The translations under genes were made by a program, and so were the position numbers. Source: Amyloporia xantha (lineage: Eukaryota; Basidiomycota; Agaricomycetes; Polyporales; Adustoporiaceae). From it: DNA of 64,000 bases. The stretch lies in NCBI GenBank assembly GCA_036971615.1, contig JAYKKR010000018.1, forward strand, positions 62,001-126,000, written 5' to 3'. Shown here piece by piece: positions 40,641-64,000 of the stretch. Each line of letters opens with the position of its first letter. Within the stretch, counting starts at the first letter, position 1. Below the pieces are notes generated by a model. The model was not told the DNA's origin and made no database searches. It saw only the letters and a list, made by a program, of their open reading frames with translations.

Positions 40641-40650
40641 TGCGCACACT

Positions 40651-41934: not shown

Positions 41935-43752
41935 AGTAGGTTTCGAGATTGAGGAGGGGGGCGCAAGGCAAGGCGTCGCTATCGACAGCGGCTTGGAAAC
42001 GAGGGATGCGACGGCCCGATGGATTAAAGATATGAATTGGATTGCCCTGCTCGTCTTCGTAAGGCAGGCGATGAAGTTCGCGAACGCGCTGACGAGTGTC
42101 TGGATTGGGCGAATCGTAGATGACGGGGTTCTTGTTGACGATATCGATAAGGGATCTTTTTTCCCACTCTCGAACCTCATGACAGCTGAAGAATATATTA
42201 GTGTGTGGGAAGTGAGATAGAAAACGGACAGGAAAGACTCACGAGATATGGGATGCGAGGGCGATAGAATAGAACTGGATCTTATGATACTTGCGGGACC
42301 TCTTCCACACGTCGAGCTCAGCGTTGAATTGATCACGGACGGCGACGGGTTGGTTTTGGCCATATCGAACCGAGATGAATATAGGTTCGCTCTTCATTAA
42401 GAACCCGTCCTCCTTCCACTCAGCCGGAGCCTGAGCGAGCCACGGCTCCCACTGGTCACAGATTTGATCACTGAGCTTCACAGTATCGACCAGGCGCATC
42501 TCGAGCGCGTTGAAATCCCTGTTAAATTTTGAAGAACGCCAAGGGTGGAGAATGGTGGAATAGCGTCCCAGGACGGTATTCCGTGAAACGCAAGAGGTGA
42601 ATATCGTAGGAATAGCGTCCCGGGACGATATTCCACGGAAACGCAGCATGAAGGTCGGATAAAAGGAGGTTTTCGTCAGTATATATCATGCAATAGATTA
42701 ACGGGATACGCACAGGATATTGGTGCACTGAGACAGCGTGAGCTTTTTCGGGTCCTTCTCCCCGGGAGACCCGTAGGGCCGAGTGACGGCGATGGGCTGG
42801 GTGGGGATCAAGCTGACGCAGTGGGCGAGGAACAAGCGCAACATCTCGATGTGATGAGGCAGCATACGAGAATCACCCGTTTCTCGAGCGGCGTACGACA
42901 TATCACCCAACTGCTCTTGCGCCATCCTTTCGGCATCGGCGGCGCGCCAGTTGTGGGGCGCATAGCGAGCCAGACCTCCGACAACGCGCAGCGGCCGACG
43001 TACATCATACGACGCTCGGTGGAAAACCCTCGACGACCGAACTTGGCTTTGAAGATACGGTAAGGCTTGTGGACGTCGAGCACGAAGCTGTAGGTCGGAT
43101 CGACCACAGCGTTCGGCAGGATAGCGTCGAGGCCGGTCTCGCGAGGGACGACCTCCTCGTAGTCGATGAAATGCTCGCGGAGCTCCCAGACGAGATCGTC
43201 ACTGTCAGAAGGGATCACGTACTTGGGGTCGATCTGGAGCTTGACCTTCTTGCGAAGAAGGTTGATGGCGCTCGTCTGGTCGTGACGCCTGAAGTTGCGC
43301 TCGAAGGCGGAGAGAGGAACGGTGATGGTGGGCTGCTGGTCCCAGTTGACAGGAGGGTTCCTGCTGTCCGCGTCGTACAGGAGACAGCGTTGCACCTCCT
43401 CTTGACCGAGGGCGTCGTGCGCGAGGATCCCGTTGGGGACATCGTCGATGTCGAACGGGCCCAGAGCGCCGGCAAGAGTGAGCTGGAAATCGCTCGTCTC
43501 TTCGGCCCTGGAGAACAAACACGATGGTGAGCCTCGTATCTCCTGCGCAGAACGAGTAACACTTACGCATCTTCTCAGTGACGAAGTTCGCGAGAACTTC
43601 GTGTGCCGGAGGAGGCGCATTTCCTTCGTCCGCACTGTCGCTGCTGAACACCAAGACAAAGAGGTCAGCAAATCACTCATAAATACAGAGTAGCGGGTTC
43701 CGACTTACACGTCGAAACGAGCAGCGATATCGTCCACGTCCATGGGGTCCAT
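41935..43752 (-). pseudogene. Gene D copy D1, frame-shifted and 3'-truncated
   Basis: Start ATG 43752, with exon 1 to 43709 (M-D-P-M-D-V-D-D-I-A-A, against M-D-G-A-L-D-I-N-D-I-A-A in D2). The exon order then follows D2: the large exon with D-I-D-D-V-P-N-G-I, the exon with S-V-R-Y-G-Q-N-Q-P-V-A-V-R, and the start of the exon with N-P-V-I-Y-D-S-P-N-P-D-T-R. Compared with D2, one base is missing at the end of exon 2 (about 43570) and one in the large exon (about 42950, after L-A-M-R-P). The gene stops at 41935, losing about 1,150 C-terminal residues. The intron at 42524-42715 keeps two palindromes, as in D2. It is almost certainly non-functional. Confidence 0.72.
42557..42634. repeat. Palindromes in the D1 intron, two copies
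   Basis: Two 26-bp elements about 52 bp apart (42558 and 42609). Their left arms read GGAATAGCGTCC but the right arms read GGACGGTATTCC and GGACGATATTCC, so each has mispaired positions. The same intron of D2 carries three copies. Confidence 0.85.
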
Positions 43753-44538
43753 GAAGGGCAGCAGAGTCGAAGGATTTTGGAAAGCGAGTAGAGATAGATG
43801 TAGAGAAAGCGGGAGAGCGATGTTCGAAGACAAAGGACGCTATGCTTGTCTGAGGACAGGCTCTGCAGAGCATGGAGAGGATGAGGCTGGCTTTTATACA
43901 CCAACTGTTTGTTTGGATATCGCCTTCGGCCGTACGACCTGGTCGGGCCACTCGCAAATTTGGAATAATTTGAAACATTTCGGTCTCAATTTTTCTTTCG
44001 TTGACACCCGACGGAGCGTGACCCGACCCTGAAGCCGTCGTTCGTCGGCAAGCTTAACAGGGAATGGAATCGGAAAGGCGAGATCGCGCTGAACGCGCGA
44101 TCTAACCAAAAGCGGATTCGACGCGTTAACTCAAAGGTGGGATCATCGGTAGTCCCGCATTAGGGACGCAGCGGGGATCTCGCATGGATGAACGCTGCTG
44201 CGGCACATACCATTAAGGGAAATGAGATCTGTGTTTCAGATATACTTCCGGGTACTACTCCGCGCCGGACGGGGCGAAGTCGCTAACTTCGCAGGCATCG
44301 GATGCAATAGTAGTGCGCTTGACACGCAGCCTGCCTCCGAGGCCAGTGCGCTCGAGACAGATTCCACTGGTATACACGCTCCAGAGTGCATAAATGATAA
44401 CTATTGCCATTGCAAAGGTACTGCTATTTAAGTAAAGGACATGAAGCAGGGTGAAGATATTAGTAGCAGGAAAAGGCGCAACGTTGCGCCGATAGATAAA
44501 CGAAAATGACATAAGCTGCATGACAACGAAATGTGCGA
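43753..44538. other. D1-E1 intergenic spacer, homologous to the D2-E2 spacer
   Basis: Segments such as GAGATCTGTGTTTCAGATAT at 44224 and GGGATCATCGGTA at 44140 recur in the D2-E2 spacer at 60828 and 60731 in the same order. The unit duplicated was therefore E, spacer and D together. No gene is seen here. Confidence 0.6.
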
Positions 44539-47500
44539 CTAGACGTCCGACACGACAAATCTCGACTGCGAGGACGACGACCCCTGAGCGCCAGACTTCT
44601 GCGAATTGGACGGTTCCATGGGCGCTGCGGATCCAGATCGAGAGCGCGAGCCACCACGCTGTTTCTTGCCGGTGCCAGGATACGAAACCCAACCCGAGCG
44701 AGGAGGCTGGCCTTGCGCTGTGAGTTCGTCGCGGCGCTGCTCCATGTTAGCCACCGTTAAGGACTCGCGCACAGCAGCAGCCATTGAGCTTGCGCGAGTT
44801 ATCCGAGGAGTGAACACAGGACGCGGCGCGGAGATCGAAGCGAGGGGCTGAGGCACATTGCCGGATGTGCCGGTGTGTGCCTGCGCGTGACCACTGTCGG
44901 ACCGTTCGTCCTGGCGCATTTTCTTGTCAGGACCTAAGCAGATGCAAAAGGAAGTCAGATTGAGGGAAGGACAAGATGAGAGACAAAAACATACGTTGCT
45001 CGTGCCCCGCGCTATTTGAGCGATCTCGTTTTGCTCCGAGCGCGACAGCGGAGGAATTGTCTTGCCGTTGCCCGAGCGAATCCGTATGAAAGCCAGAGTC
45101 GACACTGGAGTGCATTTCAAGTCTTCCTGGGATGACAACGGCGCAGAATCGTTGAACTGACTCTGGGTGAAGTCTAATCCAGCGTTGCGCTCACGCTCCT
45201 CTTCCGCTTCCTGCATCTCGATCTCGAGTTGCTCTATGTCATCCGCATACTTCTCGAAATCTTGAGAGTCTGTGAACTGCAAGGGAGCTTGGTGAGGCCG
45301 ATGCGCTGGCTGACGAGCGAGATGATCCGATGTCTCTGGAACGGGGGCAGGGCGAATTGCCTCTGGTAGGCTGCTGGGCCGCTGGGCCGCTGCCTGTGTT
45401 CCTGAGGGAAATAATTGGGCTGGCGAGACGTACCAGCGCGACGAATGGGAGACGTGTACTGCGATGGAGGATACGGAGAATTAGATGCGAAAGAGGCATC
45501 AGAATCCGAGCTGGCAGGAGCAGGGGTGGGGGGCATCGGCGGTGGAGTCGAAGATGGCTCCGCAGGGATCGTGGCTTCTTTTGTAGCCCTGACTTCCTCT
45601 TCGTGTTTCTTGATGAGAGCGTCCAGACCGAACTTCTGTAGATCCTCCGGAGACATGTACTTCTCTATCTTCCTGATCACGTCTGGAGCGAACGACGCAA
45701 GGCCCTCGTTCTTGATAACGCGAATGGCAGCGTTCATCTTCTTCAAACGATGGCTAGTGAGCGGAAGCACAGTCTCTGCAAACAAACGAAACATCATTAA
45801 TGTCTCAGTCATGTGCGAGGTTAGGCTAGACGAAGCACTCACGATTCTGCCCAGGCAATTTAATGAAGAAATTGATATCCCTGTTCACCACGACATCCCG
45901 ATTGAATTTGTGCCGAGGAGGGATAGGAGAGTTCCAATCTATGGTAGCTTTGGGAGTCCTCTCCATCCTCGTCTTCCTTCTCTTGGGCGCGTCCGGAATG
46001 TCATCAACATTGATAACCGATACTTGAGAGGACGATGCTGTACTGGAATCAGCACCTATCATAGCGATGTGAGTTGTCACATAATCACACAAAGGATGTG
46101 ATAGGAAACTCAGGAATAGCGTCCTGGGACGCTATTCCACGAAACATCGAGCACGCATACGCACGGAATAGCGTCCCAGGACGCTATTCCACGAAACACC
46201 AAGCACATGCAAACTATGGAATAGCGTCCCAGGACGCTATTCCACGAAACACCAAGCACGTGTAAACCATGGAATAGCGTCCCAGGACGCTATTCCTGGT
46301 TTACGAACGTGAGAAGAAGAGAAAACTTACCTCCTCTGGGTGGTGCAGATCCGTCTGCGGTTTGTTCAGCCATGGGCTCGTCCTCGTCGTGAACGAATAT
46401 TGCGTTCTCTATGGGTCCCTGTCCAATCATCAGATGCTTCAACATGTCCAGGTCCTCAGACGCGGCGCTCGACTCCCGCATGAATTTCTCCAGCCGATCG
46501 GATTCCTGCTCCAACATGTCGCAGATGTGGTCTCGGTCACTGTCGATCCAGTACTGCTCATCGTCGTCCGCAGATGCGCCTTCGTTAGCCTGGCTCGCAT
46601 CGGTGTCCATAGGAACGTCTTGGCTCGCCGCAGGGGTATCCAAGGTCGTGGCGAGACTCGACGGTGGAGCACTCGCCTGCGTTTCGGTCAACAAGTCGTC
46701 CTCAGACTGGCTCGCTGTAGCAGCCAGCGCAGCCGCGGCGGTCTGGGCATCCTCCTCCATTATTGCCAGCCGCCATTGAGGTATCTTTGGAGCCGCTGCG
46801 CTTGGCGCTTCGATCCCGCCCTTCTTCGCCATCTGTTCCCTTCGCCAGCGAGGTAGTATGGTCACCTTCTTGGGAGGTTGGCTCGGCGCTGCTGCCTTGG
46901 GCAGCTCTTCAACGTCTTCCTCTTCCAGATCCATCGGCGATGACCTCCCCGATGTGTTCAAGTCCTCCGCCTCAGCTGGGGTGATGTCTTTCGTCTCCCC
47001 TTCCATCGCCCCATCCGTCGCGGTGGATACCTCTCCGCCCGTGCTGTCGACTTCCATCGCTCCAGGCTCCTCGACTGGCTGATCCCCGTGCTCCGACTCC
47101 ATCTCGGTTTCCGGAGGTGCCCCCTCCTCTTCTTCCGAACGCTCCCCTTCCTCTTCGTCAGAAGGTTCCCCCTCCTCCTCGTCAGAAGGTTCCCCCTCCT
47201 CCTCTTCTTCCACAGGTTCCGTCGGCTCTCCAATCTCGGACTCTCCCTCGTTGCCCTCGGACGCACCCTCCGACGGTTCCACGTCCGACAAGTCGTCGTC
47301 GCTCGGAATATGCCCTTTTGCAACCTTCTTCGTGGCCTTCCGCTTGCCTTTCCCGTAAGCCGCCTTGTCATGCTTCGTCCCTCCCTCTTCGCTCTCTTCG
47401 CCGCTGTCACTCTCGCCCCCCTCGTCGCCTGTGGGCTCCTTTTTGACCACCAGCGTGATGTTTTGCTTGGGAGGCGCCGTTTCCCGCCTGGTGTTGCTGT

Positions 47501-50500
47501 ATACGCTCGTCATCGCTTTCAGCAGCTGTTCACCATAGTTAGAATTTTAGAATATTGTGTAATACATGTGCATGTCCTCACATTCGACTCGCCAGCCATC
47601 CCTTCAGAATATGTCGAATGGTTGCTGTGGACATATCGTCCGTATTCAACGTCCTGCAAGTCGAACTGCGGCTTGTCGCCTTCGAAGTCGTATTGGTCCC
47701 ACACATTACGATTGGCGTTGATGTCGAGCACCTGCCGTCGTTCGAAGTCAGCATACCTCCCCATCGCGTCTCACAACCATTTCGCTTACCTTCGCCAGCA
47801 GTCTCGTCGCGATGTACACCTCTCGCGCAACAGCTGGCTGTTCACGCTTCTTCGCAACAGCTCCAGGTTCGTCCGAGACCACAATCCGGTTGTGGTTGGC
47901 AGGTGGAAGTCGTGCAACAGACATCCGTTCAATCGAACGGATGATCGACTGCACCTCCTGGCGATAATGCGCCGTCGACTTGATTCGATCCAGCGCCCTC
48001 AACCCCTCTAACCCCCCTTCACTCCCGTAGGCCACTCACGAGCGATCGGCCTCGTTCTTACCTGTCGTCTGTTCCAGGAGCTGTCTCGTCCCAGAAGTGG
48101 AACTTCGCCGTCGGCATGTTGCACATCCGGTTCTCTTCCTCGTTCCACTCCCTCTGCGGCTCGATGCTGCTCTCGATCGCAGTTCGCAGAGCCTCCCGCA
48201 GATCCAACGTGTCCGCGTGCATCGTCTTGTGACGGTAGCTGGTCACCGTGTCCTCTTCCACGATCATCGCAGCGCAAAGCCATTTCGGCGGATGGCTGCG
48301 GATCAGCAGCCCTGCGATGCGTGGGTGCGATGTCAGTCCCAGACGACCCCCAGGAGGTGGACGGAATCCCGCTTTTCTTTCCGTCAGCATCTTCGCCCTC
48401 GCCGCGCGGTCCGTCTCGTTCCTCTTCAGGTGCGGCAGCAGCCACTCATGACAGTTGTCAATGTCAGACTGGTTCCTGTCGGACATCCATGGCTCCTTTT
48501 TGTAAATCGTCCAGAGTGTACTGTCTGCGTCTTCGGCTTGCACCATCTGCTCCACCTTCGTCTTGTCTGTAATTCGCGGAATAGCGAGTTCGATCAGATC
48601 GCACTCCAGGCGCGTCATCGATCGAGGGCAAAAGTCGATGAGGACCTGCGCGATCTGCGAGCCCATGCACATGTCAGCACAAATGTACTTAATGCTAATC
48701 ATAATCGTATCCACGCACCTTATGATACGCTTCGCGAGCGCGGATGTGCGGAACCGAGCGGACAGCGTTGTAAATGCATGTCGAGCCGTCGTTCATGATC
48801 TGATCCCGCGAGTTCTTGCCACGGTAATACCACCACAAGCCTTCGAAGTACCCACATACCTACAGAAGCGCCCATCAGTGGAACACATTAGGGAAAAGAG
48901 CAAACAAACTCACCTCCTGCTGTGCCAGCGGGGTCCGCAGGAACATCTGGTTGATGGCTGCCATCATCGACGCGCAGAGCAGTGGCAGCGGAGGCGAACG
49001 ATGGATATCGCTCTGCCTCGACAGTAAAACGAACGTCCGCGCGAGCACTCGATCGGCGTGTGCTTCGCTGACCTCACCTTTCTTGACCATAATCTCCAGC
49101 CGCTCATCGAGCCAACTGATGACCCTGGTGCGATATCCCTCGAGTTTCTTGATGTATGTCCCCTCTTTCACACCGATCCAAGGGAGGGAAGGTCCAAAGA
49201 ACATGTTGAATACCGTGTCTAGGCCATCCAGCGTGTCCCTGTCCTTGAAGATCTGGAGCTCTCCCACCTTGCCTCCTTTGATGTCTTGAAGCCACTTCTT
49301 GGCCGTCTCGACTTCAGGGAGCTTGGCGTACTCAGCGGAAGATAGCGTTTCTTGCGCCTTCTCCAGATTCTTGATGAGCGTCGAGACCTCTTCGAGCGAT
49401 GGGAAATTCTCGCTCGCCGATTCGATGCATGACAGCTCCAGGTGCTTCATGTCGAAAATGACGGCGAAATGCTGTGTGGAATGATTGAGTGAGAATAAAA
49501 GAAATTATATGACAAGACAAACGTACCGCAGCGTGAATGTTCACCAGCGAACACAAGAACTTCATGGTGAAGGTCTCCTGTCGACGCCAGTATGAACCCA
49601 TCTTGTTCATATGGGACAACATGCGCACAATGTGGAAGTTCGAGAGGATGCGATTGGTGCGCGAGTTCAGCTTGTCGTCCTTCAGACCCCTGACCTTGTT
49701 CTCGAAAAACGTCTCTCCCTGCTTGAGGTACTCCTCCAGCACAGCGAGCCTCGACACGAGCAGCTCCTCGTGTGTCTCGCCATAACGATGCTTGACCTCG
49801 TTGCGCGAGAGATGCTTCGAGAGACTGCGGTTGTTCTCGAGAGCGCCTGCAAAAAATGAAATCGTCAGCGCCGATAAATTATATTATTAAGTCGAGACGA
49901 AGAGGGGCCGTCGCGGAATAGCGTCCCAGGACGCTATTCCCGCTATTCCGCGACGCACGCACATACACGCGGTGCGGAATAGCGTCCCGAGACGCTATTC
50001 CATGTTATATCGACCAGCGTGAGGATGAGGAATAGCGTCCTGGGACGCTATTCCGCACCACGTGTATGTGCGTGCGTCGCGGAATAGCGTCCTGGGACGC
50101 TATTCCGCAATATCGATGGAGCGGCGTTATACGGAATAGCGATCCAGGACGCTATTCCGCATACCGTCGAATAAAATAAAAATAAAAATACGCGTATACT
50201 TACGACGGTCGTAGAGCTTCACGCCCCACCAACGAAGCTCCTCGATCTTCTTCTCGGTGTCGGCGATGTTGTTCGCGATCCGCTGGTCCTTCGCCTGCGC
50301 ATTCGCATTCCCCGCCTCGAGCTTCTTCTCGAGCTTGTTGCGGTCCTTCTCGTACACCTCGATCTTCTTGCGCAGCTTCTCGACCATGTGGTTCACAGCG
50401 GCGTGACGATGCTGCCCACCGCACGCCATGATCTGGTACCCGCTCGTCTTGAATTTGAGCTTCGGAAGGTTGATGCCGCCCAACTCGTCTTGACTCGGCT

Positions 50501-51004
50501 CCATGTCCAGGTCCTCCGGATACACCGCCAGGGGAAGCTGCGAGTCGCTCGCATAGCTGTGCACTCCGTTAACATTGAGGTTCTCCTCCAGGCCGTCCCG
50601 CTGCTTGACCACCATAGGACGAAGATTTTCCCCGCCGAAAACAGGCGAGTACGCCTCCGTCTCCAGCATGTCGATTCGCGCGAACCCGAGCCGGTGCTGC
50701 GTCGCGAGACGGTCGAGCTCGAGCGTTTCCTCAGGTACCGGCTCGAATTTCATGACCTGCGCCCCTCATCTATTAGCGAATTCGTTCCCTCCCAAGAAAT
50801 TCCCTAACTCACCTCGACTTCCTCCTCCTGATCCTCCTCCTCGTCCTTGCGCTTCTTAGCAGGTTTCTTCTTCCCCTTTGCCCCCGCCGCCGCTCCCGAC
50901 CCCTCCGCGCTGGCGCCCTCAACGGCCTTGCCCGCTTTCCGCCCTGCAGGCTTCGCCTTCGCGGCGCTCGGCCCCGCCGTCGCAGCGTTCGATTTCGGAG
51001 GCAT
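44539..51004 (-). CDS. Gene E copy E1, large protein with ParB-like G-G-Q-H-R segment (about 1760 aa)
   Basis: Exons by eye: 51004-50813, 50756-50204, 49846-49527, 49472-48914, 48859-48719, 48654-48062, about 48030-47790, 47731-47582, 47526-46331, 46055-45843, 45775-45434, 45401-44995 (internal junction unresolved) and 44933-44539. A Lys/Ala-rich head is followed by V-N-G-V-H-S-Y...L-P-L-A-V and A-C-G-G-Q-H-R-H-A-A-V, which resembles the G-x-H-R region of ParB/DGQHR-type proteins, and then by a coiled coil. The middle is helical; exon 47526-46331 is very acidic (S-D-E-E-E-G-E-P repeats). The C-terminal part has L-T-S-H-R-L-K-K-M-N and ends F-V-V-S-D-V. Palindrome arrays lie in two introns. 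The paralogue is E2. It is probably nuclear; activity is unknown and the ParB link is an inference from one motif. Confidence 0.6.
46112..46296. repeat. Palindrome array in an E1 intron, four copies
   Basis: Four 26-bp elements at about 46112, 46163, 46216 and 46270 (51-54 bp spacing), arms GGAATAGCGTCC and GGACGCTATTCC around a 2-nt centre. Spacers are related to each other (CACGAAACACCAAGCAC core). They lie in the intron 46056-46330. Confidence 0.92.
49914..50160. repeat. Palindrome array in a second E1 intron, five copies
   Basis: Elements at about 49915, 49976, 50029, 50081 and 50133, inside the intron 49847-50203. One has GATCC replacing GTCCC in the left arm. The spacers at 49948-49977 and 50053-50082 are inverted copies of each other with one mismatch. 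Confidence 0.9.
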
Positions 51005-51510
51005 CTTGGACTCAAGAGTTTCGATTTTAGAATGGAAGCAGTGAGCGAATGGATTTAGTATGTGGATGTGTAGACCAACAGCGCGAACACCAATTCGGGA
51101 AGGCCGCTCAGCGCCGGCGCGCGCGGCTGCGCCCAATATAGTCATTCTTTCCCACACTCTTGGCTCGATCACTTCGGCGCATCTTCTCTCACCATCTCTC
51201 ACTTCTCATCCTTCTCCGTACTTCTCGGACTCCCATATTCCCTCCCTCTATCACATACATCTACATAGTCACCTTTCAATATATTTTTCCCTCATCCGAC
51301 TTGTATCATACACATGCTACCGGTTCACCGACATGTTCTCCTTCCCAACCATTTATAATGTCCGGTAGCATCATGTCGTCCATTTCCTTTTCAACCAAAC
51401 AATGTCAGATTGCACCCAGCTGCTCGGCTCCTCCACTACAGTAGACACATGCTGCGCATAGTACATCAAACGCACACTCTACGACTCCACTATTCCATAC
51501 CAGTACATTC
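51005..51510. other. Upstream region of E1
   Basis: About 500 bp between E1 and F1, strongly pyrimidine-rich on the plus strand from 51170 to 51300 (purine-rich on the E1 sense strand). No gene or palindrome is seen. Confidence 0.4.
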
Positions 51511-51922
51511 TCACAGCTTCGACCCCTTCTTCACCGATTCCAACATCCTCAGCTGTCCCGGAAGCACAGCAGGACTCATCGACTTGATGTCATGCGCTAA
51601 CGAGATGATCTCCCTGTATTTCCCGATCGGAATCCCGTCCGCATCGCGCGCACCATATATACCAGAAAGCACCGCCATTCCAAATCGTGCCATATCCTGT
51701 CAATTCCATGTAAGTCCATAGCCTTCAAACACCTCTCTATGGACTTACTGCACACCACAAGACACGTTCCGCCCACTCCAACCACATCGCAGAGAACACG
51801 AACGGCTGCGCCATAGGTCGTTGCTTCCATTCCAACTCGAGGCCGTCAAAACCTTTCGTGACCATACCACACACTCCAACGAGCGTGTTCGCAGGAGGCG
51901 GGAACGGATTGTTGCCTGTCAT
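51511..51922 (-). CDS. Family F protein, copy F1 (about 119 aa)
   Basis: Two exons: 51922-51749 from ATG, opening M-T-G-N-N-P-F, and 51696-51511, ending K-K-G-S-K-L and TGA. The intron GTAAGT...TTGACAG is 52 nt and joins in phase 0. The block W-L-E-W-A-E-R-V-L-W matches W-Y-E-W-A-Q-R-V-L-W of F2 at the same distance before the same intron. A second half I-P-I-G-K-Y-R-E-I-I-S-L-A follows. No domain is recognised and there is no signal peptide. Its small size and place between E1 and D2 suggest an accessory of that unit, which is inference only. Confidence 0.58.
51710..51748 (-). other. Stem-loop at the 5' splice site of the F1 intron
   Basis: The first 12 bases of the intron, GTAAGTCCATAG, are repeated in perfect inverted form, CTATGGACTTAC, 15 bases downstream. 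The stem would bury the donor site in the transcript. Confidence 0.75.
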
Positions 51923-52353
51923 GGTGGATATGATGAGGACAAAAAGACTGAAAGTACGTCTTCCGACCCACCGCTGGCTTTCATATACGTCTCCTTTTAG
52001 CGCCCATGCCTTTCCATCACCGAATTGAACACACGGCTGTTTGACAGAAGCTTGATGCAACATCACACGTGCATCCGCATACAGGCAAAAATGAGGCCGT
52101 TCGCGACCATCAACATGGTTCGTGTCCACAACGCTCTGCACGTACATAATTTAGACACAATTCACTTCATGTTGTAAATAATGAATGTTTAATGTCCCCC
52201 GAAATACGCAACGAGAGAGGCTATCTGCATCCCTCAATATATTTCTATGTGAAGACGGCATACTAAAAAAAAACCCACAATAAATCATGTCCTGTTGTGC
52301 GCTCCGATCACCCGTTCATATCTCGATCGATTGGCCGATCGAGCGATAGAATG

Positions 52354-52485
52354 ACGGAATAGCGTCCTGGGACGCTATTCCTGATATCTTCGATATAGAG
52401 ATTACACGGAATAGCGTCCTGGGACGCTATTCCTCGGGTATCCAACGTCGAGATGTTACGGAATAGCGATCGTGATCGCTATTCC
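52354..52485. repeat. Intergenic palindromes between F1 and F2, three copies
   Basis: Elements at about 52355, 52409 and 52460. The third differs on both arms, with GCGATC on the left and GATCGC on the right, so pairing is kept. Confidence 0.9.
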
Positions 52486-52637
52486 GCGCTGTCACACTTT
52501 TCATTCCATACTAAACTATTAAATATAGTCTTTTCTGTGCATGACACATGCACATTTTACCCTTCTACACAAATGCTACGGTGATCCTACTAATAATTAT
52601 TCATACATTCATACATCTAATAAACTGTTGCTTACCA

Positions 52638-53011
52638 TCAGTCAGCTTGGACGTCCTCCATCCTTGCTTCATTCTCCATGTCTTGAACAATCTCCGCCGC
52701 AAGTTCAACCAACGGACGGTAGATCCCAAGCACCTGGTAGATGATCATCCCTGGGTTATGCGACCTCAGCGTACCCATTAGCACCATGTACTGCCCAAGT
52801 AATATAGGTCAGCTTTCACATAACTGTTGTTGACACAATCACTCACACCGTACCATAGGACTCGTTGAGCCCACTCGTACCACACCTCCGCCGGATGTTC
52901 CGTCCCTCTGCTCGCAACTCCCCACTCCCACTCCACTCGCAGCCCCGCATACCCTAGGCATGCCACATGGTACATGTGCTCATTGTATTCCTCCTCAGAG
53001 ATCGTCGCCAT
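52638..53011 (-). CDS. Family F protein, copy F2 (about 105 aa)
   Basis: Exon 1 (53011-52847) opens M-A-T-I-S-E-E-E-Y-N and reaches W-Y-E-W-A-Q-R-V-L-W-Y-G. A GTGAGT...GGGCAG intron joins in phase 0 to exon 2 (52790-52638), which has G-M-I-I-Y-Q-V-L-G-I-Y-R-P-L-V-E-L-A and ends D-V-Q-A-D and TGA. It is a paralogue of F1. No family recognised; probably a soluble helical protein. Confidence 0.58.
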
Positions 53012-53566
53012 CGGGATACGGGGATAGGTATTCTTTTCGCATTTCGTCTCCTCTTCCCCTCTCTCTTATAACACTATTCCTCTATCTTACGTTTCAGAAG
53101 CCCTCGCCTACATCTCAATATATTCAAGCTCTTCCCAGACTATTTTTCAGATCCTCAGATCCCCAGATTCATTCAATTCTATCTCGCTTCTTCTCCTGTT
53201 CTCTCCTTGATGCGCCCTGTCACACGCATCATCTTCTCATCTATATATGTCATCCTCCGCGCATCACATCATTTAGTTTTGACATGGGAATAGCGTCTCT
53301 GCATCCCCATCACCACATGGCCCGCCTCACCCAGTACACAAGGTCTCCTTATCATAGGCCTTCCATTGGCTAATTATCCATATCCCCGATCAAATACACA
53401 TATTCTACAACATCCATCTTTCTCCATATTCCCTTCGCTTTCTTGTCTGCCTTCCTGGCGCCTAATTATTAAAACATGTCTTGTCTCAGCCAAAGTATTT
53501 TATTTGACAACCATGTGAGTATGTTCATGTATGTACTTTTGAACGTCACTGATCCCTATAATCGAT
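53012..53566. other. Intergenic stretch upstream of F2
   Basis: AT-rich and pyrimidine-rich on the plus strand. A plus-strand frame at 52960-53373 has no recognisable blocks. The palindrome array starts at 53567. Confidence 0.4.
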
Positions 53567-54620
53567 GGAATAGCGACACGGACGCTATTCCACATATTCC
53601 CCCGTCGCATTCCGTGGAATAGCGTCCCTGAACGCTATTCCACGAGTTCAGTATGTCTTTATTTTTATCAGACAGAGGCGCATAATCATGGAATAGCGTC
53701 CTAGGACGTTATTCCATAGTTTCCACTTTATTATTTTTGTATAAATCAACGGTGCGTATTCATGGAATAGCGTTCCAGGACGCTATTCCTTGAACACGCA
53801 CATTTAATTTATATAAAAACAATAAAGTAGCAATCATGGAATAGCGTCCCAGGACGCTATTCCACGGATCTGTCATGTCTTCGTTGGCATCAGTCAAAGA
53901 CACATAATCACTGAATAAGGGTTCTGCTCCTTCAATGATATTGTCTTTATGTGAATCCAAAATGTGTGTTCATGGAATAGCGTCCAGGGACGCTATTCCA
54001 TGATTGCTACTTTATTGTTTTTATATAAATTAAATGTGCGTGTTCATGGAATAGCGTCCTGGAACGCTATTCCATCATTTCCACTGGGTTGTTTTTATAT
54101 AAACCAAAGATGCGTATTTATGGAATAGCGTTCAAGGACGCTATTCCACAGCTTGACTCGTATTTATTATTGCCCTCCAGGGACACTACCCATGGAATAG
54201 CGTCCCAGGACGCTATTCCGCGACTTCATCATATCTTCTTTGTCATCAATCAAAGACAAATTATCCCTGAATAGGGTTCCTGTTCCTTGGGTTTTGCTGT
54301 CTTTATGTAAATTAGTGGTGCGTGTTCATGGAATAGCGTCCTTGAATGCTATTCCATGGTTTCCACTCATCTTTGTTATCACCACTCAATGGTTCATAAC
54401 CATGGAATAGCGTCCGTGAACGCTATTCCACCATTTCATCATGTCTTTGTCTTCGCCTGTCAATGCCATTACATCACGGAATAACGTTCAAGGACGCTAT
54501 TCCGTGGTTTCTGCTCTCTTTGCCTATGTACATTTAAGGTCCGCAACTTTTTGTCACTTGTCAATTCATGTCAGTTGAGGGTGCATATTTATGGAATAGC
54601 GTTTCTGGTCGCTATTCCAT
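53567..54620. repeat. Large intergenic palindrome array, thirteen copies
   Basis: Elements start at about 53568, 53612, 53691, 53763, 53837, 53975, 54046, 54120, 54193, 54329, 54403, 54477 and 54593. Most lie 71-79 bp apart. Two gaps of about 137 bp each hold a decayed unit (CTGAATAAGGG at 53912, CTGAATAGGG at 54271). Spacers fall into related groups, and one 46-bp spacer is present in both orientations. Confidence 0.9.
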
Positions 54621-54639
54621 GGTTCACCACTTAAGATCC

Positions 54640-57600
54640 CTAGGAAAACCCTAGATTTACCCCAACCCATTTAGAAAAACTCCCTATAATGTCGAGGATG
54701 GAGGTGAACGGCTGCTTCCCTTTCCCTTTCCCACTGATGTTGTCGCTCGCTGTTGGGTTCTTGTTGGACTCGCGACGGGCCAATGAAGAGGAGACAGCGG
54801 TTGAGGAGCCCTCGACGAACATGTCTTCTGGGACGACGGAGGCGAGGCGAGGGCGTTTGGAAGGAGGCGGGACGGGGGACTGATCCTGTTCACGAGTCTC
54901 ATTGTTGAGGACGCGATCGATCCAACTCGGAGTAGACGACTGGCTGCGGGTGCGTTTCTGCTGACGTGCAGCGGAAGACGAGTGAGTGCCAGCAAGTTGA
55001 CAGGGAGGGATATCTACGTCGAGATCGAAGTCAGGGTAGTCAGCAGGGACAGGATGGGGAGCCATGGGGTAATGCGGATCGATGACCGGAGCGTCGAGCG
55101 TAGGAGGGGTAAAGACAGTGCGTGCGATGCACTGGCCGCGGTGCTGAGCGAGCTCGAGGGCCATTGGGGCGCCGAAGAGCAGGACGCAGGCGTCGAATGG
55201 GCCGTACGGAAGGTTCGTCAGCATTGACTTGAGCTTGACGTAGAGATCTGTGAGAACTTCCTCCGAATAGAATCCCCAGTCGCGTTGGAAGATGGCTGCC
55301 TTCCAGACCTTCGAGCCAGAGGCCCATGCCAGACCGAGACGTACCATGTTCAAGTGGCCGATGCCCTTGGCGGAGTGCTTCTTGGTCCAAGGCTGTCCCA
55401 AGGAACGAGTGCGCGCAAAATAGCGACGGACGGGGCTCTCGGGGTCGCACATGGCGATGATGTAGACGACGATCATGAAGATATAGCGGGCTTGGTCCTT
55501 CGTCCCCTTGCGCGTAGGATGGGGCTCCCATGGGAGCTGGCGGATTGCGTGAACTGTGGTTTCTTGGGTCGCTCCCAGAGGAACGACGTGTTTGCTGGCG
55601 TCGTCGTAGAACATGTTCGGGACGACCTTGGAAGTGCAGAATCCGACGATTAAGGCGAGATGGTGGACGGGGTAGGCGAAGTTGAAGTGCTGGATGACAT
55701 ACCTATACGTGTCTAACACGTATCTCGCTTCCTCGGGGCTCATGTTGGAATCGACGAGGCTGAGTTGTTCGAGGGGCATGTTGAACTCCTCTGGGGGAAC
55801 CTGTCGATTGAGAACGGTGTAGAGGTCCTGGATGGACAGCTCAGAGGCGGTCCAGGGAGCGCGAGTGTTTTGCGCGGCGGCCCGTCGACTGGAGGAGCTG
55901 GCGATCATCTGATGGGTGACCGAAGGATTCTGCGTCATGGCGAGCTGCATGGTACGCATTTGCTCGTACTCTGCGCCATTGAGCTTCTTGCCGATGTCGA
56001 TCCAGAAGCGTGGTGACGCGAGCCTGGAGGGACGCCCTCTGTTGCCAGTGTGGGGGGGTTTGTCAGGGACGAAGCTGATGAAAAGGCTGTCGGAAGCCAT
56101 GACGAACGCTTGACAGACCCAACGGTCGAGACATTCCTTTCTGCGATTCGAAAGGACCGGGCTGACGGTCGGCGTTTTGAAGTCCTTGGGTGCGCAGGAG
56201 GCGATGTAGCTGACAGCGATTTTGATGACCGTGTTCATGGCGCCACCGCTGAGTAGAGGAGCCTGGATAGGACCAGAGTCGCTCTTTCCCATCGCACAGA
56301 GGAGGCGAGCGAACTGGAGGACGGTGATCTTCGACTTTTTCGGATTGGGAAGGCCGAGATACAAGTCCTCTGGATTTGCGGTGATCGCACGCAGCAGAGC
56401 GTCGTATGCGCCGTCCTTGTATGACAAAGGGTGGGGGGACTTGATCCATTTATCGAGGGCACGCTTGCGCTCGTCGTGGTGCTGCTGGGTGATGATATCG
56501 GGCGCCGCTGCAAAGCCGGAGCTCGTGGGCGATGGCTCGAGCATCTTCTTCAGGTCGTCTTGGACGACTTTGCAGACGCTCGACTTGACATCTGAAATGT
56601 AGACTTCAAGTGCGACCTCGGCGACCATGGCTGCATGCCTGACTGAAGGCGCATAGGAACTGTATTTTTGAGGAGGCATGTGGTAAAAGATCATTGCTAT
56701 GCGAAGATCGGTGAAATATGCCTGTGGTATATGGAGCACAGTGAGCGATGATAACTCAGACAGTGAAAACGAGGGGAAGGCAATATCAATGTGTGAATAG
56801 AAAAAGACTTACCAGAAAGTGAACGGAGCCGTAAGTGAGTTCTTGAGCACGACGAGATGCCACTGCAGGGAGCTTGTTGGGACCGACGGTGGGGTAGTCC
56901 TGCGGATTCATTTGGAACGACGTGGTGACGGTGGGACTGATGCGAACGACCGGGGAGAGAGTGGGCATGCCGAGGGTAAGGAGACTTCGCACAAGCCACA
57001 AAGGGCCCATGGACTGAGTGGACAACACCTTTGCATTTCCTGTATGCGCGTAGGCGAGGATACGCTCTAAGATGGCGCATATTTCGACATCGATGGTTGC
57101 TGGTCTGAGAGTCAAATCGAGGTTCGGTCCGATCGACAAGACGATCTTCTCGATGTTGTCCTTGTGATTGTCGAAGATTCGCTCGATGAGAGATGTGACA
57201 CCATATGTTGTCCATTTGACGAGAGCAGGGAAAGCCTGTGAGAGACATTGTTCAGTCAGCATAAAACAAGAAGAAACAAGAGAAATGAGATGAGGACGTC
57301 GCTACTCACGTCAGCACGGAAGACGACGATGTGCCTCTTGAGATCGTCAAATACATGGGGGTGGCTCCAGGCGGCGGTTAGCTTGAGTATGATGCCCTTG
57401 TATACCTCCCTAAAATAAATAATGAAATATGATAGTGTTGATGAGTGAAAGGGAAATGCGAAAGAGAGGGAGTAGGAGTACTTACGTTCCATGCCTCTGA
57501 GCCTCAGGGATGTTGTCAAAGTCGATCTGATAGACGTTCTCCATGCGCAAAGCGCGTGGAACGTCGGGGAGGTCGATGCGCTTGTCGAAACGTTGATGAG

Positions 57601-58288
57601 GGAGATTGAGAGAACACTTGCGCCAGATATGACGATGGATTCTCCTGGCCTCAGGGGTTCGAGCGTACGCGCCGGCGAGGGTCATGCCAACTGAGCCCTG
57701 GCAGACCTCGTGCATACCTGAGCTGGGACGAACACGATGCGAGATGCTATTATATCCCTGAAAGCAAACCGGGGTGACGACGGGCGCGGTTGTGAAGAGC
57801 TCATCGAGCACAGCGTCCTCCTCGTCATCTGTGTCGACGACGGTGGCACGTCGAGATTGAGTGCGCTGGGTCGACGAGCGGACAGGGCCTCGTCGTCGGC
57901 CATAGGATCGACCATCGCCACCAAGGAAATCGTCGTCGTCGTTGTCATCGTCATGGTTGTTGTCTTCGTCATCTTCGTCCTCATCGTCAGCATCAGATTC
58001 GACGGCGTGCGCTCTCTGAGCGGCAGCATTGGCGTTCCGCCGTTTTGCGTGTCGCTTCCGGGAGGCATCGTAGTGGTCGTTGATGTTGTCGATGAAGGGG
58101 AGGACGGCGGTGGGAATTGCATTTGCTTGACAGTTGCCGATGCTGCGCAAGAGGGCTTGAGGATACAGGCGAACATTGGTGGCGGAGCGATGGTCATGTT
58201 TTCGACCCTCAGGCATGTAAGGAAACTGAGAAGAAGAACTCTTCTTGGGGCGATCAGACGGTCTCGTCCAACGAAGACGCTCCTCCTC

Positions 58289-58325
<37 letters not shown>

Positions 58326-60334
58326 TCGTCATCCGAGTCTGTTACAGAAACGAGATCGGGAATCTCGTCGTCGGTATCGGTGCGCTGATCATCATCGGGA
58401 GGGACGGACTGAGGCATGACAGCTGGCTCGAACATGTCAGCACAAGTGGAGAGATTGAGGAGGGGAGCGCAAGGCAGAGCGTCGTTGTCGAGAGCTGCAG
58501 CGTAGCGGGGAATGCGACGGCCTGAGGGATTGAAGATGTGAATAGGGTTTCCCTGCTCGTCTTCATATGGAACGAGATGAAGATCTCGAATACGCCGACG
58601 AGTGTCCGGGTTGGGAGAATCGTATATAACCGGATTCTTCTGAGTGATTTCCACGAGTGATCGCTTGGTCCACTCCCGGACCTCATGGCATCTACGGACC
58701 GGATGTGTCAGTGAATGAAGATTAACTTGCGAGAAAAGATGTTCTTACGAAATATGAGAGGCGAGAGCGACGGAGTAGAACTGAATCTTCGAGTACTTGC
58801 GAGATCGCTTCCATACGTCAAGCTCGGCATTGAACTGGTCCCTGACGGCGACGGGCTGATTCTGACCGTAGCGCACCGAAATGAAGATGGGATCATTCTT
58901 CAAGAGGAAGCCATCCTTGCGCCACTCAGCGGGAGCCTTAGATACCCAAGGTGACCATTCCGCAGCGAGAGTCTCACTGAGTTTGACGCTGTCGACGAGG
59001 CGCATCTCCAACGACGGGAAATCACTATGACCATTGCGATCGGCATGCAATGCGAATGATGGAATATCGTCCCGGGACGATGTTCCGGAGAAAGTCAGGG
59101 ATCGGATACCATGGAAGATCGTCCCAGGACGGTGTTCCGCGGAATAAGACATAGCGGTGAATCGCGGAATATCGGTCGAGGACGATATTCCGCACAAGTG
59201 GACATGTGAATGAATAAAAATATGAGGACATGGTCAGCTATGGTTCCCCGTCACGTAATAAAGTGTACGTACAGGATGTTCGTGCACTGAGATAGGACGA
59301 GGTTCTTCGGATCGGTATCGCGGGGGGATCCATACGCTTGATGGATGGCGATGGGCTGGGTGGGGATCATGCTGACGCAGTGGGCGATGAACAGGCGCAT
59401 TTGCTCGATGTGATGGGGCAACATGCGCGAATCGCCCCCCTCACGATCGGATTGGGAGACCTCTCCCAATTGCTCTCGTGTCTTCTTGTCTGCGTCGAGA
59501 GCACGCCAATCACGAGGGCGCATAGCGAGCCACACCTCCGACAAGCCGCACCGGCCGACGTACATCATACGCCGCTCGGTATTGAATCCTCGGCGACCAT
59601 ACTTTGCCTTGAAGACACGGTATGGCTTGTGCACGTCGAGAACGAAGCTGAACGTCGGATCGACGACAGCGTTGGGTAAGATGGCGTCAAGACCCCGCTC
59701 ACGAGGAACGACCTCTTCATAGTCGATGAAGTGTTCCCGAAGCTCCCAGACAAGACGGTCGCTTTCGGAGGGAATGACGTACTTGGGATCAATCTCCAGC
59801 TGGACCTTCTTCCTCAATAGGTTGATGGCGCTGGCCTTGTCGGATCGCCGGTAGTTGCGCTCAAGGGCTGAAAGAGGAACCTTGATGGTAGGCTGTTGAT
59901 CCCAATTGACAGGCATTCTCTTCGTGTCGTTGTCATAGAAGAGGAGCCTTTGGACTTCGTCTTGCCCGACACCATCGTCAGCGATGATCCCGTTCGGGAC
60001 ATCGTCGATGTCGAACGGTCCCAGCGCACCGGCGAGATCGAGCTGGAAGTCGCTCGTCTCATCGGCCCTGCGGAATAGCAGCGTGTGTGAGACATGCTCC
60101 TGCTCTCGCCCATGTACGACGTTAGAGTAAGTAACACTCACGCATTTTCCTCACTAACGAAGTTCATGAGAACTTCGTGCGCAGGAGGCGGCGCGTTTTG
60201 TTCGTCGGCAGCATCACCGCTGGAGCACGGAGCGTGAGCAACAGGTGAAAGGAAACAAAAAAACTAAAGGAGCATGATTCGACTCACACTTCGAAAGGAG
60301 CAGCAATATCATTGATATCCAAGGCGCCGTCCAT
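54640..60334 (-). CDS. Gene D copy D2, intact large protein (1668 aa)
   Basis: Eight exons join in frame: 60334-60288, 60219-60142, 60067-59273, 59024-58749, 58691-57486, 57409-57310, 57235-56813 and 56721-54640. It opens M-D-G-A-L-D-I-N-D-I-A-A. A first globular region has D-I-D-D-V-P-N-G-I, N-W-D-Q-Q-P-T and R-R-M-M-Y-V-G-R-C. The next part includes S-V-R-Y-G-Q-N-Q-P-V-A-V-R and N-P-V-I-Y-D-S-P. A disordered linker carries fourteen Asp in a row and basic runs such as R-K-R-H-A-K-R-R. A long helical C-terminal region follows, then Ser-rich sequence with S-K-R-P-R-L, a likely nuclear signal, and the end W-V-G-V-N-L-G-F-S. No known domain recognised. It lies downstream of E2 on the same strand, as D1 does of E1. 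Confidence 0.7.
59060..59190. repeat. Palindromes in the D2 intron, three copies
   Basis: Elements at about 59062, 59111 and 59164 in the intron 59025-59272. They are of the ATCGTC/GACGAT type and less regular than those of E2. This is the same intron that carries palindromes in D1. Confidence 0.85.
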
Positions 60335-61152
60335 TGGTATCGAAAGAGTAGAGCAGTTTTGAAAGCGAGTAGAGATGGCGAGTGAGCGAGAGAGAAAGGA
60401 CAACGCTAGGAGACGACGTCTGTAGTGCTTGTCTGAGGGACAGGCTCTGCAGACAATGCAGGGGAAGAGGGCAGCATTTATAGACGGATTGTTTGTTTGC
60501 ATCGTGCGTTCGGCCGTACGACCTCATCGGACAGCGTACGGATTCGGACCAGTCTGAAACATGTTTGTCTGAATTGTCCCTTTGCTGCCGAAGCATCCAT
60601 GGCTCAGCGGCTCAGCCCTTGGACCGTCAAAGCATCGGCATGCATGAGCCGAGCATTGAATCTAGAAGGTCAGATCGCGAAGAATGTCGAGTCTAGCCAA
60701 AAGTGGATCGGACGCATCGAAACAACTGCGGGATCATCGGTAATTCCGCGTTGAGGACGCAGGGCGCAGAATAGACTTTCACATGAGAAAGTGGCGCTGC
60801 TGCGGCGGCTCCCATGAATGGAAAAATGAGATCTGTGTTTCAGATATACTTCCGGGGACTCCGGTCGAGACGTCGCGAAGCGCTGAAGATAGCGTCTCCC
60901 TATGAAACAAGGCTACACTTGGACTCAGCAGATTCCGTGAATGGGAGCTGAGGGCCAGGCGCATTCATGAGCACGCAATGTACACTATTAGATTGTGATA
61001 TTGCTGTGTGTAAACGACCATGAAGCGTAGCGTAGATATGGAACGACATTAAAAAGGTAACCTCTTTAGCGAACCGGACGATTGGCACGAAAATATCGTA
61101 AGCGAAAAAACACGAGAACCGACGTTATCGGCGGGAGACGTGAGAACTACTA
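60335..61152. other. D2-E2 intergenic spacer
   Basis: Homologous in order to the D1-E1 spacer (shared GAGATCTGTGTTTCAGATAT at 60828 and GGGATCATCGGTA at 60731). No gene is seen. Confidence 0.6.
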
Positions 61153-64000
61153 CTATACGTCGGAAACGAAGAATTTCACATCTGCAGAGGATGCCCTGGT
61201 GTTCGAGCGAGTGTTGTGAGTAGTGTTCTGTGCCACAGAGCCACGTCGGGAGCCTCGAGAACCTCCTCCTCGATATCCTCCGCCGCGAGCACGGCTGCCA
61301 TATGTGTAAGGGTTTCTGAGAATGTCATTAACCTGCTGTCCGACGCCAGCCGAGGAAGTCATTCCAGGCTCAACCGGCGAATGAGACTCAGGGACGGGGT
61401 AACGGCGCACGTCACTAGACGTGCCGGCTTGTGTATCCGTGAACTCGTCTTGACGCAATTTCTTATCGGCAGCTACATGTCGAACAAAGTCAGTTGCAGA
61501 CCGAAACCTAGATACCAGCAGAGAGAACATACGTTGTCCATTTGCTGTACTGTTGGAACGATCGCGCTTGCCCGCCGTAGGGGCAACACCCTGGGAGAAA
61601 GCCTGTGTAGAGTCATCTGTGTGACGCTTGCGGAGGCGCTGCTTCAACTGCCATTCATAGTCAGACGGGTTCATTGCCTGTGAAGAACTGCCTTGAGATG
61701 ATCCGCCCATTGGCTGTGATTGATCAACGACGGTAGGAATGGAGACAGCATCAACCGCTGCAAGGACTTCACGACGACTCTTCATTAGAGCCTCCAGGCT
61801 GCAAGTCTTCAAGACATCTGGGGACATATACTTCTCGAGCTTCTTGATTACCTCAGGAGCGAATGCGTCCAGACCCTTCTTTTGAATCGCGCGGACGGCA
61901 AAATTCATCTTCTTCAAGTGATGACTTGTAAGTGGCAGCACTGTCTCTGCACGCAGAAAGAAACATGCGATGTGATGTCAGTCACAATACCACGTGCAGG
62001 GTTAGGTTAGACATTAGACTCACGAGTTTGCCCGGGCAATTTGACGAAGAAATTGACGTCCTTGTTCTTCGTGACATCGCGATTGAACTTGTGACGCTTG
62101 GGGATAGGAGATCGCCAGTATAACGTCTCCTTCGGAGTCATCTCCATTTTCGTCTTTCGCCTGGGAGGAGGATCGGGGATAGCATCGACATCGATGGCCG
62201 GAACCTGAGTGAAAGGAGGCTGCGAGGCATCGACTCCTGTGAAAGAGGACGTCCATAAGCATCCGACGAAAGTGACACGCATAGCTGTGGATGTGTGGAA
62301 TATCGTTCTAGGACGATATTCCAGTGATATCCGCATAGGTAAGTACGTAGGAATACCGTCCTGGGACGATATTCCAGTGATATCCGGATGGGCAAATACT
62401 TAGGAATACCGTCCTAGGACGATATTCCAGTGATACCTGGATATGCAAGTACTTAGGAATATCGTCCTAGGACGATATTCCTCGAGGTGCCATGTATGGT
62501 CACAGTTAGGAATATCGTCCCAGGACGGTATTCCCGACTCCGTGAAGTAGAAATGAATGTGCACTTACCAGCTGAGGTAGAGGCTATGTCGACATCGTCT
62601 CCAATGAGCGATATTGTCATGTCCGTCTCTTCGAAACGACCACTACCAATGATCATGTCCTTGAACATGCCCATGTCGTCCGACGCTGCGCTCGATTCCC
62701 GCATGAAGTTCTCGAGCAACTCCGAGTTCTGTTCCAGAACGTCAAACAGGTCGTCCATACCGGGGTCGATCCAGTAACCGGCCTCTTCCTGATCCACTGC
62801 CATGCGGTCGACGGGTGGGCATGGATCTATGTGCATTTCCTCCATCTGGCTACCACCAAAGTAGTCCGTGCTTGCACCTATGCTCGACGGTGGACCACTT
62901 GCAGGCGGCTCGTCCGTAGCAATACTCCCGGGCTGGCTGCTATCGATCTGCAATCGGGGAGCCTCTGCGTCAGTTCGCTGCGAGTCTGACGGTATGTAAT
63001 CCGATATAGACATGTTGGAGGATGCTCTAGACCTTCCGCCCATCTGCTTGTGTTCAGACACAGGGACCTCCTTCGCTGGGTCGGCGGGTTCCTGTCCCTC
63101 TTCCAGAGTCTCCTCCTCAAATTCGGTTTCTGGGGGCGCTTCTACCTCTGTGTCCGTCTCCATCGGTCGTTCGTTGTCGTCCGGCTTGTAATTCTCCATA
63201 TCCAACGACGGAGGGAGCGGTGCCAACTCTTCATCCGACTCGGGCTCGTCGTATAAGGTCTTCAAGTCGATCTTCCTCCGCACACCCTTCCCTTTGACAT
63301 CCTTCTTCCCATACGCTTCCTTGTCGTGCGTTGTGCCACCCTCCTCGCTCTCGGCGCTGCTGAGGATATCATCCTCGTCGTCGTCATCCTCCTCCTCCTC
63401 CTCCTCCTCATCCTCCTCCTCATCCTCCTCCTTCTTGACGATTGCTGGAATGTCCATCGATGGAGGTGCGGTCTCCTTCTTAGTCTGAGAATGTGTCTGG
63501 GACATCATCTTCAAAAGCTGTCCGTACAATATTAGCAAATCAGATCATCTTCAATGAATAGTTCCTCTCTTACCTTCGATTCTCCCTCCATGCCATCTAT
63601 ATACCTTGTATGCGTGCCATGCGTATACCGTCCGTATTCGACTGTTCCCACGTCGAACACGGCATGTTCGCCCTCATAGTCGCAGTGATCCCAAAGGTTA
63701 CGACTGGCGTTGATGTCAAGAACCTGTTTCAAAATGGATGCATCAAAAGGTCAGCGTCTGAGGCATGTATGTAAAACGATGTGCATACCTTCGCTAAGAG
63801 TTTTGTCGCAATGTGAACCTCGTGCGCAACAGCCGGGCGCGGAGCACGTTTCTTCTCAGTCCCCACATCGAGAGCTGGCAGTCGTGCGACGGATGTCCGT
63901 TCGATTGAGCGGATGATCGTTTGAATCTCCTGCCGATAGTGCGCCTGCATCCGGATGCGTGACAAAGACTTGAGACCCTCCTTTGCCCCTTCCACTCCCG
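61153..64000 (-). CDS. Gene E copy E2 (5' part beyond the window)
   Basis: Exons visible: beyond 64000 to 63789, 63723-63574, 63517-62569, 62236-62024, 61946-61533 and 61472-61153. The order and splice phases follow E1 exons 7 to the end, and shared blocks include I-I-R-S-I-E-R-(T/M)-S-V-A-R-L-P, Y-G-R-Y, M-R-E-S-S-A-A-S and L-P-L-T-S-H-x-L-K-K-M-N; it ends F-F-V-S-D-V. The acidic exon has runs of Glu and Asp. The intron 62237-62568, homologous to the E1 intron 46056-46330, carries five palindromes. The frame is intact where seen. The ParB-like part would lie outside the window. Confidence 0.65.
62295..62534. repeat. Palindrome array in an E2 intron, five copies
   Basis: Elements at about 62297, 62351, 62404, 62456 and 62509 (52-54 bp spacing), mostly of the type GGAATATCGTCC / GGACGATATTCC. 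Spacers are related (CAGTGATATCC then GTA(A/C)TTAGG-type blocks). Confidence 0.92.

Follow-up and report, generated by a model that had tools for sequence, protein, structure and literature searches.

What maintains a palindrome that recurs 35 times between 42.5 and 62.5 kb of a fungal contig? The window analyzed here is a stretch of 64,000 nucleotides from Amyloporia xantha (contig JAYKKR010000018.1, labeled C10; C10:62001-126000), and it carries these copies on two sister families of mobile element, E1 and E2, both of which bear palindrome arrays. The original prediction held that every change in a left arm is matched by the complementary change in the right arm, pointing to a pairing constraint, a dimeric protein site, or copying through a hairpin. 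Of these options, the dimeric protein site is best supported, whereas the pairing constraint and the covariation argument behind it failed. The present analysis adds a constant spacing of 52–53 and 72–76 bp, a flank motif, and a carrier element at chromosome ends. Taken together, the arrays probably (at roughly 0.7) consist of packed sites, carried by a mobile element of chromosome ends, for a dimeric DNA-binding protein that is specific to each element family.

Palindrome arrays and the longer symmetric site

The palindrome follows the pattern GGAATAGCGTCC-NN-GGACGCTATTCC, with 24 defined bases, and occurs in a second form, the T variant. With up to two mismatches allowed, its 12-mer arm matched the window 74 times, against a mean of 4.92 (standard deviation 2.29, largest 12) in 100 dinucleotide shuffles. 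The copy number first reported was borne out: 35 palindromes, 27 of the E1 type and eight of the E2 type, lie in seven arrays (42557–62534). Across the 46.8-Mb assembly, whose 60 contigs are labeled C10, C17, C34, and so on, 159 matches to the E1 pattern and 157 to the T variant were found at up to three mismatches (the two counts overlap), and a reversed-pattern control gave 0. The pattern had no match in viral contigs, and an Rfam scan of the window returned no family at the gathering threshold. The palindrome catalogue comprises 202 copies in fetched DNA, after an overlapping false match (C17:15628) was dropped from 203, and covers 150 of the 159 E1-pattern and 155 of the 157 E2-pattern genome copies; the distance between the arms is 2 in 190 of the 202. 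The elements and arrays in the window are as follows.

41938..54690, minus strand: E1 element copy, with its fixed right end at 54690, its left (far) end cut at 41938, and its genes pointing toward the contig start
54691..64000, minus strand: E2 element copy, truncated within gene A at the junction with the right end of E1; its own fixed end is at C10:131806 (69806 in window numbering, beyond the window)
42557..42634: array A of E1, 2 sites 52 bp apart, in a gap between gene A coding segments (probable intron)
46113..46296: array B2 of E1, 4 sites 52–53 bp apart, in a gene B intron (GT/AG boundaries predicted)
49915..50158: array B1 of E1, 5 sites at intervals of 61, 53, 52, and 52 bp, in a 357-bp gene B intron (49847–50203)
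52356..52485: array C of E1, 3 sites 52 bp apart, between two small genes
53567..54618: right-end array of E1, 13 sites adjoining the fixed end, at intervals mostly of 74 bp but also of 49, 72, 115, and 136 bp
59061..59191: array A of E2, 3 sites 52 and 53 bp apart
62297..62534: array B2 of E2, 5 sites 53 bp apart

For arrays other than B1, placement in introns or gene gaps is deduced from conserved coding segments. Palindromic sites of the same kind occupy both introns and intergenic gaps.

The spacers indicate that the site is longer than the palindrome. In the 52-type arrays, 25 of 26 spacers measure 25–27 nt, and the remaining one contains part of an additional palindrome. Position 7 excepted, E1 and E2 half-sites are 89–99% alike, while the spacers in corresponding arrays resemble one another little more than shuffled ones do (best identity 0.48–0.70 for 10 E1 spacers vs 0.48–0.58 after shuffling). 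The half-site motif is about TGnnRWWnYRY-GGAATAKCGTCC, its degenerate part lying directly before GGAATA. Among 82 deduplicated half-site flanks, chi-square values reached 78 at position -3, 42 at -2, 37 at -10, 36 at -1, 29 at -5, and 25 at -6. Under stricter deduplication (43 E1 and 26 E2 flanks), the E1 matrix recognized E2 flanks at z=6.4 and the E2 matrix recognized E1 flanks at z=8.0, while flanks read in the wrong direction scored far lower and background 13-mers nearby scored at the shuffle level. The outward-facing flanks of arrays bear the motif as well (E1, n=10, z=5.3; E2, n=9, z=2.8). Three E2 sites with 5 mismatches were set aside in these flank tests, two of them also in the spacing table. 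Judged from these flanks, the 26-mer is the core of a longer predicted dyad site of about 48–50 bp. Since two flanks of 11–13 bp and the 26-bp core add up to 48–52 bp, sites in the 52-bp arrays would lie edge to edge. A sequence-specific, two-fold symmetric site at a fixed half-site distance, as expected for a dimeric binder, is what was found.

In the right-end array, the 136-bp intervals (spacers at ~53912 and ~54266) contain a degenerate site (TGAATA.GGGTTC...) in the 74-bp register, as if decayed. CRISPR arrays likewise combine palindromic repeats with unlike spacers of one length, but the present spacers hold their place between copies and carry a common flank motif, which argues against a CRISPR-like origin; the one spacer searched was found in three places, all of them E2 copies.

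Arm changes within and between the families

The claim that each left-arm change has its counterpart on the right did not hold. Identical arms were found in only 14 of the 35 window copies (13 of 27 E1 and 1 of 8 E2). At position 7, the arms read C/T in copies 62350 and 62403, and in the pair of E1 copies within gene A they read G/C (42557) and G/T (42609); copy 59113 is G/C at position 5. The copy at 52460 does have the arms GCGATC/GATCGC, as described.

Covariation was examined in one copy per family, E1 from C17 (31 sites) and E2 from C10 (22 sites, all kept), where arms were identical in 19 of 31 and 1 of 22 sites, respectively. Single-arm departures from the family consensus numbered 17 in E1 and 32 in E2; matched double departures numbered 2 and 6, against 0.99 and 5.36 with the right arms shuffled. 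Arm matching within a family did not rise above 5000 shuffles (E1, P=0.256, n=31; E2, P=0.170, n=22). Arm changes are independent across genome copies, the outcome that the original prediction had itself named as speaking against pairing. With the two families pooled, arm matching exceeded every shuffle (0/5000). The main source of this signal is position 7 (43 matches vs 24.3), to which position 11 adds slightly (P=0.04). At position 7, 59 of 62 E1 arms carry G and 37 of 44 E2 arms carry T, and the pooled pairing signal arises mainly from this family-wide difference. The arm covariation is thus a fixed difference between families and not a sign of base pairing.

Compensatory arm changes inside one lineage were sought in both families, where they were not above the shuffled level, and in near-identical copies, which had none. 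When copies were grouped by their flanks, 44 of 61 groups were multi-copy; the arms varied in eight of these, one of which merges two neighboring sites, and no position differed in both arms. Several arm differences are C-to-T or G-to-A changes at the CG of positions 8–9, especially in the rearranged internal copy C34:2378k. On the transcript strand, 24 intron copies showed 6 G-U, 7 A-C, and 7 other mismatches; as G-U does not exceed A-C, there is no RNA-wobble bias.

Carrier elements at chromosome ends

The E1 stretch recurs in C17 (99.4%) and C23 (97.9%) and partly in C55, C19, C22, and C34. Seven E1 copies stop at the same base (window 54690) with differing flanks, and a similar E2 end was found in six copies; for the two C34 copies, only 7–14 flanking bases were read. 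A third similar end, E3, is present as a ~160-bp stub at C17:108-268 and C34:2030932-2031092. Among the ten far ends read, four are joined to short CCTAA runs (C55, C57, C19, and C22), three abut the right end of another element (the C10 E2 copy by E1; those of C17 and C34 by E3), and three show neither (C10 E1, C35, and C59). TTAGG arrays terminate contigs C10, C17, C19, C22, C35, and C55 as well as C34 on its right side; no such array was present on the left side of C34 or at those ends of C23, C36, C57, and C59 that were read. Eleven of 13 copies are oriented toward a contig end no more than about 132 kb away, and the other two, on C34, are internal. The copies accordingly lie near chromosome ends in one orientation, with one fixed end and eroded far ends, as telomere-attached elements do, and this pattern fits elements that were added at chromosome ends and later eroded and healed. 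The right end alone was recognized, as a second terminal end or target duplication is not visible owing to erosion of the far ends. None of 150 scored RVT_1 matches to reverse transcriptase fell inside a copy, although the eroded far ends could have lost it.

HeT-A/TART, rotifer Terminons, and Coprina share one fixed end on arbitrary DNA, eroded far ends, and head-to-tail stacks at chromosome ends. The present copies differ in lacking a reverse transcriptase match, in carrying packed palindromic sites, and in having genes that point from the fixed end toward the telomere. Yeast Y' elements and telomere-linked helicases are also multi-copy, like the present copies near TTAGG ends, and an OrsD/DEAD-helicase-like gene (below cut-off) lies nearby in the window; however, this gene is outside the E1 copy, and genes A and B of E1 and E2 encode other proteins.

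Several further observations concern these chromosome ends. The telomere repeat is the five-base TTAGG, in a basidiomycete (ends of C10, C17, C19, C22, C34, C35, and C55), and TTAGGG runs gave 0 matches. A second repeat of ~330 bp (98–99% alike; C10:131803-132132, C55:7527-7856, C57:49832-50156, and C19:16800-17112) ends in CGCTCCACCAC beside CCTAA repeats, as if it were another element within telomere repeats. Window 34114–40755 equals C10:41819-48464 at 99.7%, so that a 6.65-kb stretch, its extent bounded by the locus compared, is present twice on C10; it contains the OrsD-like and DEAD-helicase-like reading frames, both just under the Pfam cut-off. An internal remnant of E1 at C34:2378300-2378986 lies in inverted orientation between two palindromes, and its sites carry additional C-to-T/G-to-A changes at CG.

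Each element carries two long multi-exon genes (A and B) and two small related genes, reading from the fixed end toward the telomere, with GT-AG introns. Matching E1 and E2 coding segments are about 41–86% identical. The gene features of the window are as follows.

44539..51004, minus strand: gene B of E1, many exons; exons 1–4 at 50813–51004, 50204–50756, 49527–49846, and 48914–49471
54691..60360, minus strand: gene A of E2, far end cut off; its last reading frame (54640–56739) crosses the E1/E2 joint
51737..52147, minus strand: small gene C1 of E1, a reading frame that has a related small gene to its right

For gene A, three relatives were found in the database, one of them in Suillus lakei, and no homolog of gene B (residues 60–920) was found among 7992 candidates scored. 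The GT-AG introns and the S. lakei relative fit a basidiomycete host. Searches with exon fragments and spliced portions of both genes gave nothing above the cut-off against Pfam, NCBIfam, and PDB sequences, and the gene pieces scanned against Pfam contained no recognized DNA-binding domain or transposase family. By eye, the gene B motifs GGQHRHAA (exon 2) and ALENNRSLSKHLSRNE (exon 3) resemble ParB boxes, but tests of this likeness were negative or unusable. Pfam and PDB sequence searches of gene B were negative for ParB, ParB_N (PF02195) had 0 matches in the A. xantha genome, and tblastn searches of the gene B N-terminus against plasmids and phages reached best E values of 3 and 1. DUF3723 also had 0 matches in this genome, a result of little weight given that the same profile was silent in 14 of 14 controls. 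AlphaFold models were unusable, with a pLDDT of 40 for the last exon of E2 gene A and of 48 for gene B exon 2, good only in a coiled coil. The ParB-like motif is only a lead. E1 gene B goes out of frame at one place in C10 (window ~48000–48130) and at another in C17; neither copy need be intact, and an assembly error may be involved. In the far part of an E1 copy, the plus-strand locus C17:948-1742 encodes half of a SET-like domain (19.4 bits against a cut-off of 22.4) with a cluster of cysteines after it, and its tie to E1 rests on a single copy.

A putative dimeric protein and its alternatives

In the favored reading, a sequence-specific dimer or multimer would bind a two-fold symmetric site of ~48–50 bp with the half-site TGnnRWWnYRY-GGAATAKCGTCC. 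Within introns and gene gaps, sites would stand edge to edge (52–53 bp, five helical turns), and near the fixed end they would be separated by about seven turns (72–76 bp); such whole-turn spacing would place neighboring bound proteins on one face of the helix. The binding protein of each family may have changed its preference, giving rise to the position 7 difference in nearly all sites. The element would encode this protein itself, possibly in gene B or the small genes, and the arrays may give rise to a nucleoprotein structure by which the element is regulated, silenced, or maintained at the chromosome end. Whereas the sites, their spacing, the flank motif, the family difference, and the location near chromosome ends are observed directly, binding is deduced from the DNA sequence. 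The EBNA1 family of repeats in EBV oriP, plasmid parS, and iteron arrays likewise place many symmetric sites at a fixed, helically regular spacing on a self-maintaining element. The present carrier differs in being a nuclear fungal chromosome-end element whose putative sites span ~50 bp and extend across introns and gene gaps.

Sequence conservation gives this reading partial support. Arm positions 1–4 and 6 are invariant in the 106 arms of 53 non-redundant sites, and between C10, C17, and C23 the arms vary in 3 of 644 columns against 23 of 985 in array spacers (P=0.002). Several results weigh on the other side. The arms are not significantly steadier than the rest of the element (3/644 vs 94/10629, P=0.38), and similar rates were found across five copies of the right-end array (arms 4/308, spacers 13/715, other 8/394). 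Arm constancy is also partly built in, as the site search prefers intact arms, and C23:2575451 has one arm badly altered. Recent copies consequently provide modest evidence for constraint on the arms. The flank motif is weakest in the E1 74-bp spacers (n=7, z=1.8). The spacing classes of 52, 74, 115, and 136 bp fit a period of 10.25–10.5 bp (R 0.94–0.96; at 10.5 with the 61-bp class added, R=0.88, P=0.011), but this test rests on few, hand-picked classes. Finally, no binding protein was identified, and the ParB-like motif of gene B failed every test made.

Alternatively, the arrays could be bound by the mobility enzyme of the element, like the subterminal repeats of large DNA transposons, a possible but doubtful explanation. 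The sites are family-specific, and the densest array (13 sites) lies 72–1124 bp from the fixed end of E1, reminiscent of CACTA-type elements with short repeated sites near an end. However, the present arrays recur at regular spacing along the entire element, and in C17 they reach as far as about 17 kb from its fixed end; the scanned gene pieces yielded no transposase family; and neither terminal inverted repeats (the right end only being known) nor a second terminal end or target duplication was seen.

An origin as a by-product of DNA copying, in which template switching and inversion homogenize or multiply the palindromes and a bound protein is unnecessary, is unlikely to account for the arrays, although part of it was observed. 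In one array (C17 3382), spacers 1 and 3 are exact reverse complements and another inverted pair is 77% alike; the C34 inversion joint falls inside palindromes; array B2 has directly repeated spacers; and site number differs between copies (4 vs 5 and 3 vs 4). The palindromic sites recombine, and the hairpin-copying option of the original prediction stands to that extent. Nevertheless, most spacers are unrelated yet of one length, with a common oriented flank motif that is found outside the arrays too, so that recombination at the sites is not a sufficient explanation. Moreover, one-sided arm changes persist without transfer to the other arm, and corresponding gene gaps are occupied in both families.

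A pairing constraint, with the stems of intronic RNA hairpins or DNA cruciforms kept by compensatory changes, is highly improbable: the arms are long and largely complementary, their pooled matching is strong, and copy 52460 is altered at two positions in both arms, but neither family covaries, near copies never differ at one position in both arms, G-U pairs are not in excess, the outer arm sequence is itself constant, sites of the same kind lie between genes, and an RNA hairpin could not close over a loop of 2 nt without opening of its top pair.

The dimeric-protein reading has a speculative and rather improbable extension, in which the element bears a partition- or capping-like system. Gene B would then be a diverged ParB-fold protein and the ~50-bp dyads parS-like loading arrays, which would tether, segregate, or protect chromosome ends that undergo repeated erosion and are rebuilt by the element, and the position 7 switch would reflect protein–site co-evolution between competing families.

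For covariation tests in general, this locus exposes a trap, as pooling two families with one fixed difference creates a strong but false pairing signal. Open-access full-text literature searches, judged from their listings, turned up no such fungal chromosome-end element family. The findings point to a family of fungal mobile elements at chromosome ends with a long, packed, family-specific putative binding site. Its two sister families offer a natural test of joint change in specificity between a selfish element and its DNA-binding protein.

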